A stretch of 64,000 nucleotides of DNA. Source: an uncultured Actinomycetes bacterium (lineage in GTDB: Bacteria; Actinomycetota; Actinomycetes; Nanopelagicales; Nanopelagicaceae). The notes under the pieces are model-generated. The model was not told the DNA's origin and did no database searches. It saw nothing but the letters and a program-made list of their open reading frames with translations. The stretch covers positions 149,933 to 213,932 of the forward strand of contig CALEGP010000038.1 in the NCBI GenBank assembly GCA_937876245.1, given 5' to 3'. Shown piece by piece: positions 59,997 to 64,000 of the stretch. How positions within the stretch are numbered: the stretch's first letter is position 1; each line of letters opens with the position of its first letter. The translations under genes were made by a program, and so were the position numbers.

Positions 59997-60074
59997 AATT
60001 CTCTTAGTGAAATTAAATGGATTAGGAATGTGCAGCTCGTTTCGTAGGTTTTAAATCAAATCAACAGAAGTGAA

Positions 60075-60986
60075 TCACTTGCCAGTAAGTCTAACACCGG
60101 TAGCCTGCTCGAATCGCTCCTCAATCTCCTCCGGATTTGGGAAGTCTCTTCGCCAGCGGTTTTCATGAAGTTTTTCAGCAAGCATTTCCTTGTCAAAGAA
60201 GTTTCTAATTATTTCTTCATCTTTAATATTGAGAAAATCGAGCAATTTTGCATAGGAATTTTCCCGGTCGTGAATAATCAGATCTTCTAATTTAAGTATG
60301 AATTTCTGTTCCTCTGGAATTTGCACCATTGAAGCCTCGGCCATCGATGTGCGACGTAGCCACCATGCCATTGCACTATCAAAGTCGTTGGGTCCCCATG
60401 GCTCGCGAATTACCGAAGCAATAGTGTCTAATGGGTTGCGTTGCATCTCGATAAATTTTGCGCCTGGTAAAAGTCTATAAATAGAGCTGGCATGCATAAT
60501 ATTTGGTGGACTAGTGTCCATCCAGTTAGGTTCGCCGAGGTACTGTCTCTGAGCGTTGACAAACCCGTAAAAAAATTGGCGACTTGCCCCTTCGAGATCT
60601 TGGCTTGCCCCATCGTGTAACTCGCGAAGTAGGATCTTGATTTTCTTTTTGGATATACCCAAATGCAATCCACTATCCTGGTCAAGCCTATTTTTTCTCT
60701 CATACCATTCGTTGAGCATCTTTCCGGAAAATTTCTTTAGTCTTGGCTCATACTTACCAAGTGGCATAAAGTGGAGATAAAGCCGGCTCTTTTTGGAAAT
60801 CTCTTGACTAGAAAAATCTCTCATTCCGAAGGCGAGATCGGTCAGCGAGAATACATCCGTCAAAAATTTTATCTCATATGGCTTGCCGCATTTAATCTTT
60901 GAGTGCCTACCGAGCAATTTTCCTACGATAGTTGTACCGCTTCTTCCTGTGCCTCCAGAAAAAATGGGCAAAAAAGAGTCATTCAT
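60075..60986 (-). CDS. Sulfotransferase family protein
   Basis: SGGTGRSGTTIVGKLLGRHSKIKCGKPYEIKFL (PAPS 5'-PSB loop-like), PGAKFIEMQRNPLDTIASV. Confidence 0.82.
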   Translation of the reverse strand: MNDSFLPIFSGGTGRSGTTIVGKLLGRHSKIKCGKPYEIKFLTDVFSLTDLAFGMRDFSSQEISKKSRLYLHFMPLGKYEPRLKKFSGKMLNEWYERKNRLDQDSGLHLGISKKKIKILLRELHDGASQDLEGASRQFFYGFVNAQRQYLGEPNWMDTSPPNIMHASSIYRLLPGAKFIEMQRNPLDTIASVIREPWGPNDFDSAMAWWLRRTSMAEASMVQIPEEQKFILKLEDLIIHDRENSYAKLLDFLNIKDEEIIRNFFDKEMLAEKLHENRWRRDFPNPEEIEERFEQATGVRLTGK

Positions 60987-61131
60987 AAGCAGAAAATATC
61001 GTGCTCGAGGGTAAGCACCAAGGACCTAAACGTTGTGTTCTCCAACAATCGAAGATATTGCGGCCCAATGCTGACTATGTACTCAATTTTCAGCGGATAC
61101 GGAGAACTACTTTCTGATATAAAATTTGGTC

Positions 61132-61917
61132 ATGAGCAATGAATCGAATTTAGCTAGGACAGCGCTTATTACAGGGGCAGGGAATTCGAAGGGGATCGGT
61201 TTCGCAACAGCGAAAGCGTTGGGATTACTTGGTTATCGAATTGGGATTACTTCGACTAGTGATCGAATTCGGGATCGTGTGAAAGAGTTGGAAATTTCGG
61301 GTATCGAAGCATTTGGTTACGTTGCTGATTTAACATTCGAAGAAGAGGCAGAGGCTCTGGTCAATGCCGTTGTTGAACGTTTTAACTCGCTGGACGTCTT
61401 GGTTAACAATGCAGGAATGACAAGCATTAGCGATCCGGCGGAAGACGGTGAAGGCCCGCTGGAGAATTACACGTTACCTAGTTGGCAATTAGCCATTTCG
61501 CGAAATTTGGACACGACAATGTTAGCCAGTAAGGCGGCTATGCCATTTCTCAAGAAGAGTGCAGCCGGCAGAGTTATAAATGTTGCAAGCGCTACCGGCC
61601 CAGTTTTGGTGATGCGAGATACGGTTGCATATGCGACCGCAAAGACAGCACTGATAGGTTTCACGAGAGCCGTCGCCCTAGATTATGCGCACTTTCCTTT
61701 GACGGTAAATGCCGTTGCCCCTGGTTGGATAGCAAGTTCGACTGACTCCGAGCACGAGATTCGCCAAGGTGCAGCTGTCCCGATGAGGCGTCGTGGAACT
61801 TCCGATGAAGTGGCGAGCGCAATCGTTTGGCTGTCCAGTCCTGGTGCTTCTTACATTACGGGACAGTGCATAGTTTTGGACGGTGGTAATGCTTTACCTG
61901 AAGAACGTGACAGCTAA
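61132..61917 (+). CDS. SDR-family oxidoreductase (FabG-like)
   Basis: ALITGAGNSKGIGFATAKALG, VNNAG, Yx3K context YATAKTALIGFTRAVALDY, C-terminal SYITGQCIVLDGGNALP. Confidence 0.92.
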   Translation: MSNESNLARTALITGAGNSKGIGFATAKALGLLGYRIGITSTSDRIRDRVKELEISGIEAFGYVADLTFEEEAEALVNAVVERFNSLDVLVNNAGMTSISDPAEDGEGPLENYTLPSWQLAISRNLDTTMLASKAAMPFLKKSAAGRVINVASATGPVLVMRDTVAYATAKTALIGFTRAVALDYAHFPLTVNAVAPGWIASSTDSEHEIRQGAAVPMRRRGTSDEVASAIVWLSSPGASYITGQCIVLDGGNALPEERDS

Positions 61918-62058
61918 TGAATCGTATTTTCAAAAGGCGTAGCAATTTTGGCAAGAATGGTCTCAAAAGTTTTTAGTAAAGTACGAAAATAGAAAGATTC
62001 GAAGTAAAAGGTGGATTGTGACGGGTTCGAGCCTACGACCTCAGCCTCTTCTCTTTCG

Positions 62059-62241
62059 AGTGTGCGTATGTTCTCACCAGAGCCTGTCCCACGAGAGTTG
62101 ATCGAGATTGCAGTTAGGAGTGCCAATACTGCACCACGCCCTTATATTTTTTTCCCAGTTGGCTATTTAGCTGAAGATTGCACCGTGCCGGATCTAGAAC
62201 GAAAAGAACTCAGCAAGATTTTGAAGATATATTATCTATGA
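62059..62241 (+). pseudogene. Nitroreductase-family remnant with large internal deletion
   Basis: SVRMFSPEPVPRELIEIAVRSANTAP (nitroreductase N-terminus) joined directly to RPYIFFPVGYLAEDCTVPDLERKELSKIL (nitroreductase C-terminus); central domain missing. Confidence 0.65.
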
Positions 62242-62351
62242 TGATCTTCTCGCAGCGCACAGGCTCGTTTAGGCGCAAATCTGGAGCTATCGGCGAGAGA
62301 TAGCTAGAAAAGACTGGTAGATACTCACCCTAAAAAAACTACAATCAATGT

Positions 62352-63482
62352 ATGAAACCACGAATAATAGGAGTTTTGGCCATTCTCACCTTATCCATAA
62401 GTGCTACCGCTATGCCAGTAAGTGCTGCAGTCAAAGTAGGAGCAAAGTGCAAAGTAGTTGGGCAAATAAAAGCGAAGAATAGTAAGGAATTTATTTGCAT
62501 AGCCAAAGGTAAGAAGTTGGTCTGGAGTAAAGATAAAACGGTGAAAAAAGTAGTTCCTCAAGTAACACCAACACCAACACCAACGACAGCACAGGCCAGT
62601 TTTTCATTCAAATACAACATTGATAAGAGCGTGCCTAAAGATTATGCGATTAAGTTCAGAGATACTATGAAAATTTTGGGCGAAGTAATTCCTATAGATT
62701 CGAAGATAGGCGAAAATGCCGAAATATCAAAGGAGTCAGGGAATCCTTTCATGAATATTTATGTGGCGAGGGAGGGAGCGAATGCGTGGCCAGTTACTGT
62801 CACTCGACACGGAGAGAATTGCATATGTGGTAATGGGCGAGAGACCTGGATGAATTTAACACTCTACAACTATGACATTGAGAGCAACAACGTTAGCTTT
62901 CTCGATGGATTGGTCGCACATGAGTACTTCCATGTGTATCAGAAATCACTGTCAAAAGATGTTCTGCGACCTAAATGGCTGACTGAGGGTACAGCTACTG
63001 CCATATCAGATCTGTATACGAATCAGTATTACGGTCAATGGGATTTGGAGTGGAAAATTCAGAATGATTCGTCAAAGTTCATTTTTACTAATCCTAAGTT
63101 ATTTGAAAAATTTGAGTCATCAGAAGAAGACTCCACAGGAAAGGCGATGGATAGTAATTACGGCAGCTCAGTATTTATGGTTTTAGCCTTGGTGAAGGAA
63201 TTGCAGAAACAGGGAATCTCCGAGCAGAGAGCTTTTGAAATGGTATTCAAAGATTTTTGGGTTGAGAATGCTCAGTTACCCCAGTTTATTGAGCTAGATG
63301 GTGGCAACGAAAAGAACGCTGTAGATTGGCAAAAAACATTTAAATCTCTCTTTAAAATGGATGTAAAGACCTTTTACGCACACTTACAAAGTGAGTATTC
63401 TCTTACAGATTACAAGGCAGACTACAAAAAGGTACTCCCAAGTAAGTCTTTAAAAATCCAAGATATCTTCGTAAGCAAGTAG
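62352..63482 (+). CDS. Secreted protein: N-terminal two-Cys module, PT linker, putative HExxH zinc metallopeptidase domain
   Basis: Signal peptide; VGAKCKVVGQIKAKNSKEFICIAKGKKLVWSK; TPTPTPTTA linker; VAHEYFHVYQK...PKWLTEGTATAISD (HExxH plus downstream E). Confidence 0.8.
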   Translation: MKPRIIGVLAILTLSISATAMPVSAAVKVGAKCKVVGQIKAKNSKEFICIAKGKKLVWSKDKTVKKVVPQVTPTPTPTTAQASFSFKYNIDKSVPKDYAIKFRDTMKILGEVIPIDSKIGENAEISKESGNPFMNIYVAREGANAWPVTVTRHGENCICGNGRETWMNLTLYNYDIESNNVSFLDGLVAHEYFHVYQKSLSKDVLRPKWLTEGTATAISDLYTNQYYGQWDLEWKIQNDSSKFIFTNPKLFEKFESSEEDSTGKAMDSNYGSSVFMVLALVKELQKQGISEQRAFEMVFKDFWVENAQLPQFIELDGGNEKNAVDWQKTFKSLFKMDVKTFYAHLQSEYSLTDYKADYKKVLPSKSLKIQDIFVSK

Positions 63483-63512
63483 CACCTGCGTAATTAAGGT
63501 TCAGTTTTATAC

Positions 63513-63557
63513 TAGTGGACGATACTGGGATCGAACCAGTGACCCCCACAATGTCAA
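63513..63557 (-). other. 3' half of a tRNA (anticodon loop to discriminator, GAC/Val-like), 5' half not recognisable
   Basis: Minus strand TTGACAT-TGTGG-GGGTC-ACTGG-TTCGATC-CCAGT-ATCGTCC-A. Perfect 5-bp T-stem with TTCGATC loop; U33-GAC-A37; no canonical D arm or 5' acceptor strand adjacent. Confidence 0.6.
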
Positions 63558-63742
63558 TCTGTCTCGGTAAGTTTTTCAGCGTGTTGTCCAGTGCATTACG
63601 TTCAAACTTCTTGCTTATTTACGCGTGAAATACTTTCTCGGACTTAGACGATACCCGATGGAAAGTAGCAAGAAAGTAGCAAGAGATAGCTAGGAAAGGC
63701 AAAGGGGGTAGACAATGCACCTTAAAAAACTATTATCAACGT

Positions 63743-64000
63743 ATGAAGTTACGCCTAATAGGAGTTCTGACCATTCTCGTCTTGTCCGTAAGTGCGACGG
63801 CTGTGCCGGTAAGCGCTGCGGTTAAAGCTGGAGCTAAATGCAAAGTAGTTGGACAGATAAAAGTTAAGAAGAATAAGGAATTTACTTGCACAGCCAAAGG
63901 CAAGAAGTTGGTATGGAGTCGAGGCCAGGTAAAATTCATTACACCAAATGAATTGGCACCTCAGCCTGAATTGGCACCTCAGCCTGAATTGGCACCTCAG
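63743..64000 (+). CDS. Secreted protein paralogous at N-terminus to 62352..63482, truncated by window end
   Basis: Open frame not in the ORF track: MKLRLIGVLTILVLSVSATAVPVSAAVKAGAKCKVVGQIKVKKNKEFTCTAKGKKLVWSRGQVKFITPNELAPQPELAPQPELAPQ... Confidence 0.8.
   Translation, partial: MKLRLIGVLTILVLSVSATAVPVSAAVKAGAKCKVVGQIKVKKNKEFTCTAKGKKLVWSRGQVKFITPNELAPQPELAPQPELAPQ
63950..64000 (+). repeat. 18-bp in-frame tandem repeat (GAATTGGCACCTCAGCCT), encodes ELAPQP; continues past window
   Basis: Two complete identical units plus a 15-nt partial third at the window edge. Confidence 0.95.

Follow-up and report, generated by a model that had tools for sequence, protein, structure and literature searches.

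A Two-Cysteine Module with Apparently Exchangeable Payloads in Secreted Proteins Often Encoded at tRNA Genes

Two Genes at the End of a Contig

The window, by which we mean the whole stretch of 64,000 nucleotides that was analysed, stops at position 64000 together with its contig (C38), one of the 39 contigs of a draft genome of 1.52 Mb (G000). Its last part carries a complete gene for a secreted protein, here called A, and the beginning of a second one, B, the features of which are collected in table 1.

Table 1. Features of genes A and B and of the unit in which B lies, with positions in the window.
Feature	Positions	Strand	Remarks
5' flank of gene A	62293..62351	+	Recurs upstream of gene B; repeat search agrees
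Gene A	62352..63482	+	376 aa, secreted module-plus-gluzincin protein; ORF
Signal peptide of A (residues 1-25)	62352..62426	+	AxA-type end; from sequence; predicted helix 4-17
Two-cysteine module of A (residues 26-60)	62427..62531	+	Alignment of 26 modules
PT-rich linker of A (residues 61-83)	62532..62600	+	From sequence; low pLDDT
Payload of A (residues 84-376)	62601..63479	+	Gluzincin-like; HExxH at 62919-62933
47-bp copy of tRNA-Val(GAC) 3' end	63515..63561	-	Left boundary of inserted unit
Leader of inserted unit	63562..63742	+	63679-63742 repeats the 5' flank of A
Gene B, first 258 bases	63743..64000	+	Remainder is contig C10, bases 53-1237
Signal peptide and module of B	63743..63916	+	Near-identical to a gene with unrelated payload on C9
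ELAPQP linker repeat of B	63950..64000	+	18-bp tandem repeat; copy number uncertain at contig break

Gene A encodes a signal peptide, whose cleavage site was placed by eye, then a module with two cysteines, a PT-rich linker and a payload that begins where module-free relatives start to match, from residues 79-84 onward. The linker and the HExxH site which a sequence-only reading of this DNA had described for A are both present in the sequence. The motif of the payload is HExxH..Q..E (residues H190, E191, H194, and E212) and includes the second glutamate after HExxH that is found in gluzincins; across the 32 sequences of the gluzincin group both glutamates are 90-100% conserved, that of HExxH being invariant and the second one, in an EG motif, nearly so. 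The payload nevertheless stays below the cut-offs of named families (22.3 bits versus 25 for DUF5700, 22.5 versus 140 for MXAN_6640_HExxH), and a fold search with the model of gene A gave a single weak match to M61 amid chance hits. No relative of this type of payload was found in phage or plasmid records.

Gene B is interrupted by the end of the contig within the repeat encoding ELAPQP. Contig C10 of the same genome starts with an exact 52-bp overlap with the end of C38, inside that repeat, and the two contigs were joined on the basis of this overlap within a repeat, of the reading frame and of the synteny with the locus of a relative, L227. The joined B has 481 residues and bears an HExxH site, the C10 part supplying HEVLHSHGFSGHFP. 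The sequence-only reading had taken the ELAPQP repeat as the C-terminal part of B; the repeat is indeed there, but it is only a linker, since C10 completes the gene and adds an HExxH payload behind it. This payload, for which no Pfam match was found, is from its sequence a putative M6-like HExxH metallopeptidase. Over its whole length, joined B aligns with the family member L023 (30% identity, E 1e-73), which has a B-like payload; the likeness to M6 immune inhibitor A lies in the predicted fold of L023, which resembles immune inhibitor A2 (4yu6, E 2e-6), and in matches to TIGR03296, whereas the sequence identity to 4yu6 is as low as 8%.

As the earlier reading had stated, A and B have upstream DNA, signal peptide and module in common and then diverge. 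Positions 62293-62528 and 63679-63919 are 79% identical in an alignment of 241 bp (E 5e-56), and this repeat takes in the 5' flank (GAGATAGCTAG(A/G)AAAG) as well as signal peptide and module. The two proteins are 63% identical in their first 84 residues, with no meaningful alignment beyond the linker even after B was completed; their payloads are putative metallopeptidases from different families. Upstream of this pair, at 62085-62241, there is the remnant of a nitroreductase-like gene, with its start joined to its end and the middle gone; the relative G002 has an intact nitroreductase-like gene of 218 aa (L086:1225-1881) with the same neighbours on both sides.

The Module behind the Signal Peptide

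The module spans about 35 residues, is basic, contains two cysteines and is usually followed by a Pro-rich linker. One glycine, the two cysteines and one tryptophan are invariant in the 26 aligned modules of the genus, and no Pfam family matches the module beyond chance. The two cysteines, C33 and C49, may form a disulfide. In the AlphaFold2 prediction for gene A, residues 39-59 contain three strands, in blocks with a pLDDT of about 86-91, and the prediction for L023 has the same three strands. The nearest named relative is a Candidatus Planktophila, one of a group of bacteria that are abundant in fresh water and have very small genomes. Among the genomes sampled from the class, the module occurs in 25 of the 28 that belong to the family, with one to eight module genes per genome, but in only 7 of the 269 others, so that it is largely restricted to this family of streamlined Actinobacteria; a sample of the phylum contained one genome only with the module, apart from that of the window. 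The module is hence present well beyond genes A and B, and in every member examined it stands right behind the signal peptide, as it does in the cassette that the sequence-only reading had proposed (start at residue 9 to 51, median 24, in 83 proteins).

The same 83 module proteins provide the features that bear on function: the median pI of the module is 10.1, none of the proteins has an LPXTG motif, and a possible C-terminal membrane stretch is found in only three of them. A profile search of PDB returned one weak match, to the chitin-binding domain of chitinase A1 (1ed7), a domain of CBM12. This likeness to a CBM5/12-like domain covers 17 positions (module 11-27) with an E value of 0.037 only, and leaves the first cysteine and the final tryptophan outside. 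Because no other anchor is seen, because the pI is near 10, and because a related payload elsewhere has a peptidoglycan-binding domain at the module's position, the module may tether the secreted enzyme to the envelope, through a wall polymer or a polysaccharide, which would be the cell-wall or surface attachment considered in the sequence-only reading; the non-significant match to the chitin-binding domain is a further hint in the same direction, to be taken as a lead only. We advance this reading tentatively, as a little short of evenly balanced.

Diversity of the Payloads

With linkers masked and a filter for coverage, the C-termini behind the module form 16 sequence clusters, mostly of metallopeptidases. 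The largest clusters are gluzincin-like (34 members, including A) and M6-like (21 members, including B); the others comprise Rieske (8) and cytochrome b5 (4) proteins, M23-type groups and singletons. Family scans identified TIGR03296 of M6 in 18 proteins (B itself lying outside that scan), Rieske in 8, Cyt-b5 in 4, Peptidase_M23 in 4 and a copper monooxygenase in 1, and HExxH occurs in 52 of the 83 module proteins. Four module proteins are encoded in the genome of the window: A, B, an HExxH protein on contig C9 and a cytochrome-b5-like protein on contig C11. As for the members with a Rieske domain (L028, L038, L043, L119, L127, L136, L145, and L152), the three that belong to the genus have a module without both cysteines, while the remaining pattern is kept.

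A Single-Gene Unit Inserted at tRNA-Val

Behind gene B, contig C10 carries an intact tRNA-Val(GAC) at 1363-1435, and its bases 1363-1409 recur between A and B, at 63515-63561, with 46 of the 47 positions identical (98%). The sequence-only reading contains no mention of this tRNA copy, which is visible by direct comparison alone, since Rfam at a lax threshold detects no RNA in 60000-64000. A second tRNA fragment near 62011-62050 was considered and dropped, being a weak match only.

Locus L227, which belongs to a Candidatus Planktophila relative, has a homolog of gene A (84% identical) and, 31 bp later, an intact tRNA-Val, without any B; beyond this tRNA follow tRNA-Cys, tRNA-Gly and further genes in the order of C10. 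The boundaries of the match with L227 are exact, the window side ending at 63561 and the C10 side beginning at 1363, and this empty site with its exact junctions defines an inserted unit of about 1.8 kb that contains gene B alone. From such a comparison, gene B appears to have come as a unit inserted at tRNA-Val and to be no simple local duplicate, so that the word duplicated, by which the pair had been accounted for, does not describe it best. The unit is without an integrase; the draft genome encodes no more than two tyrosine recombinases, which are probably XerC and XerD, and with only these two the unit would need an enzyme that acted in trans or has since been lost.

The same tRNA cluster shows a second difference between this genome and L227, namely a lyase-like gene (L010) between tRNA-Val and tRNA-Cys (G000:C10 1435-3379), which is absent there in L227. 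Genes that lack the module also end directly at 3' fragments of tRNA-Val in G002 (L086:3144-3738) and G011 (L085:9180-9689), one being CopC-like by eye and the other an unknown of 149 aa; hence, the tRNA-Val island takes other cargo too.

Association with tRNA Genes across the Family

A convergent tRNA 3' end lies within 200 bp of 10 of the 55 module genes versus 3 of 588 control genes, which were taken from 33 sampled 20-kb regions; the corresponding p of 2e-9 is approximate, since orthologs at one tRNA and related genomes are not independent. Within 500 bp, and with fragments included, the figures become 24 of 82 module genes versus 5 of 588 control genes, while partial tRNA copies are found behind five module genes versus none of the controls. 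The 3' end of the gene faces the 3' end of the tRNA, which in ten cases from complete genomes starts 1 to 147 bp past the stop codon. For the remaining 58 of the 82 module genes, the 500 bp that follow the stop codon are free of tRNA sequence, and insertion at tRNA genes is therefore not the sole route by which these genes reached their places.

The tRNAs involved are Val-GAC, Val-TAC, Lys-CTT, Lys-TTT, Ser-GGA, Arg-ACG, and Met. Different payload types occur at the same tRNA across genomes (Lys-CTT, Val-TAC, and Arg-ACG), and a single payload type, with the motif HETTHTIQ, occurs at both Lys-CTT and Arg-ACG. The layout of the window is found again in G009 at tRNA-Ser, with a gene, a 20-bp tRNA copy, another gene and the intact tRNA. 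G013 has at tRNA-Arg an element of 3.04 kb with 48-bp repeats, which contains a tyrosine integrase (N-terminus missing in frame), a piece of purH and a secreted protein similar to the gluzincin group, the module of which has diverged. Besides the two recombinases found in the genome of the window, a third type, associated with tRNAs, is seen in G013 and G009.

Different Payloads at Fixed Loci

Three pairs of genes at the same locus (L133/L149, L121/L142, and A with its counterpart in G002) have kept flank and signal peptide while differing in payload. L133 and L149 are 96% identical over 4.1 kb that reach as far as the module, and 93% identical over 2.8 kb that start 25 or 178 bp past the stop codon; their payloads give no DNA alignment, and the module also differs in part. 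L121 and L142 match over 2.5 kb at 91% through the module, after which one has a gluzincin payload and the other an M6-like one; from the 3' end of tRNA-Lys onward, L121 matches L143. Between gene A and its G002 counterpart, identity is about 92% in the upstream DNA and 90% in signal peptide and module versus 46% in the payload. An alphaproteobacterium (L228) has a payload with 63% identity to that of G002, in a protein that carries PG_binding_1 (E 1e-10) where the module would be. A search of viral contigs found no relative of the G002 protein or of the N-terminus of B.

The exchange points lie at the module or shortly after it. Within the genome of the window, gene B and the module gene on C9 are identical in 183 of 187 bp, from -13 to +174, with one of the differences falling in coding sequence, and their payloads are unrelated; signal peptide and module were, to judge from this stretch, apparently copied to an unrelated payload. 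Together with the 16 clusters and the three pairs at fixed loci, this copying bears out the exchangeable C-terminal payloads that the sequence-only reading had proposed.

Relation to Known Systems

Integron gene cassettes are tandem single-gene units in one orientation, with a recombination site on their 3' side. The module units have the same tandem single-gene layout, but their sites are the 3' ends of tRNAs.

Additive flexible genomic islands at tRNA genes have been described in Ca. Methylopumilus (fGI-2, PMC10872708) and in Ca. Actinomarinales (fGI1, PMC7771536), streamlined aquatic bacteria in which gene cassettes are targeted to tRNAs and cargo has entered one site in succession, each insertion being marked by a repeat of the tRNA 3' end (PMC10872708, PMC7771536), the cargo of the Methylopumilus island ranging in size down to single genes (PMC10872708). 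The B unit resembles them in its direct repeat of a tRNA 3' end and in the empty site of a relative, and the module genes in general do so in the cargo that varies between genomes at one tRNA; the difference is that one family of secreted enzymes sharing a module is involved, at no fewer than seven tRNA genes and with payload differences within genes. Tycheposons, as they are described in PMC10872708, are elements of 4-200 kb with cargo and a tyrosine recombinase, the integration of which is linked to tRNAs; the B unit, with 1.8 kb, gene B alone and no recombinase, does not belong to them. Polymorphic toxins, a class marked by a linked immunity gene (PMC3482391), similarly have a common N-terminus and an exchangeable C-terminus (16 clusters here), including metallopeptidase payloads, whereas module genes with a tRNA close behind them are without an adjacent immunity gene and several of their payloads are not toxin-like. 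Insertion at tRNA sites is, in sum, of an already known kind. Two things seem new, to judge from the open literature that was searched: a single-gene unit that comes from a family sharing a module and has payload differences within the gene, and the module itself, which seems undescribed.

How the Payloads May Have Been Exchanged

In evolutionary terms, a question arises: By which route did one export segment come to precede C-termini of so many kinds? We consider it probable that the module defines a family with exchangeable payloads, the members of which insert at tRNA sites, have their payloads replaced in frame and act at the envelope. The distribution of the module, the enrichment near tRNAs, the B unit with its empty site and the payload differences at fixed loci can be read from the sequences themselves; the mechanism that we infer from them would start with a tyrosine integrase, acting in trans or lost since, that inserts single-gene units in tandem at tRNA attachment sites. 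Homologous recombination in the similar 5' flank and module would then replace payloads in frame. Where two copies lie in tandem and have 240 bp of similar 5' sequence, as A and B do, deletion could produce a hybrid gene, although no such hybrid was traced. The module, finally, would hold the exported enzyme at the envelope, so that the system would renew the set of surface enzymes, a step which has less support than the others.

The two-step exchange as such, in which tandem units at tRNA sites come first and recombination in the flank and the signal-peptide-module segment then swaps the payload, is a possibility that we put forward with some doubt. If true, it would amount to integron-like domain swapping behind a fixed export-and-anchor module, with tRNA 3' ends serving as attachment sites. 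The exchanges would be explicable too by ordinary homologous recombination with imported DNA. Under that explanation, the DNA would come from relatives, tRNA loci would be hot spots for any cargo and the module would have no role in the exchange. The module-free genes at tRNA-Val fragments in G002 and G011 are compatible with it, and the two-sided replacement in L133/L149 is what a double crossover within the flanks would give; however, the exchange points lie at or just past the module in several pairs, and what B shares with the C9 gene is the 5' segment only, with no flanking homology. We thus regard ordinary recombination alone as somewhat unlikely.

For the module itself, the main alternative to envelope anchoring is that it acts as a propeptide, or as a segment resembling an export chaperone, which is removed after secretion. 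In all members it occupies the place directly behind the signal peptide and before the linker, which is where the propeptides of secreted proteases lie. Yet payloads that are not proteases (Rieske, cytochrome b5) carry the module as well, and its pattern of Gly, Cys, and Trp is strongly conserved, as in a folded domain, so that a removable segment looks rather improbable to us.

Returning to the origin of the pair, plain tandem duplication would make B a local copy of A whose C-terminus has drifted beyond recognition, with the export segment held by selection. It would suit two adjacent genes on the same strand with 240 bp in common, including non-coding 5' flank, but it is contradicted by payloads from different metallopeptidase families and by the presence in L227 of A and an intact tRNA-Val without B. 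It also leaves the 47-bp tRNA copy between the genes unexplained and is at odds with a 5' segment of B whose identity is 98% with the C9 gene and about 80% with A, for which reasons we hold it to be very unlikely. More improbable still is a system like polymorphic toxins, with a constant N-terminus that delivers exchangeable toxin domains against competitors: A variable C-terminus behind a constant N-terminus would suit it, and metallopeptidase toxin domains and cassette recombination are known in that class (PMC3482391), but wherever a tRNA starts so close to the stop codon there is no room for an immunity gene, Rieske, cytochrome b5, and M23 domains are found among the payloads, and a scan of 82 members with defence models gave one weak match.

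If our preferred explanation, a module family with exchangeable payloads, is true, it names an undescribed mini-domain for export or attachment and shows a streamlined genome renewing its secreted enzymes, which would be exchangeable piece by piece. The precise junctions (the empty site, the attachment repeats, and the exchange points) would then make insertion at tRNA sites and payload exchange testable in metagenomes and cultured strains.

Other Genes beside tRNAs

A few further arrangements were seen at tRNA genes. Contig C9 ends within a tRNA-Gly (G000:C9 104473-104525), about 390 bp upstream of its module gene. In the alphaproteobacterial single-cell genome, the payload gene (L228:1645-2970) is convergent with the 3' end of a tRNA-Ser. 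Another secreted-looking family, with the motif SLN.GAPVEFGQGV, forms three tandem genes beside tRNA-Leu in G006 (L233:1592-5660), with a 28-bp tRNA-like repeat at this locus, and has relatives in G011 and on contig C11 of the genome of the window.
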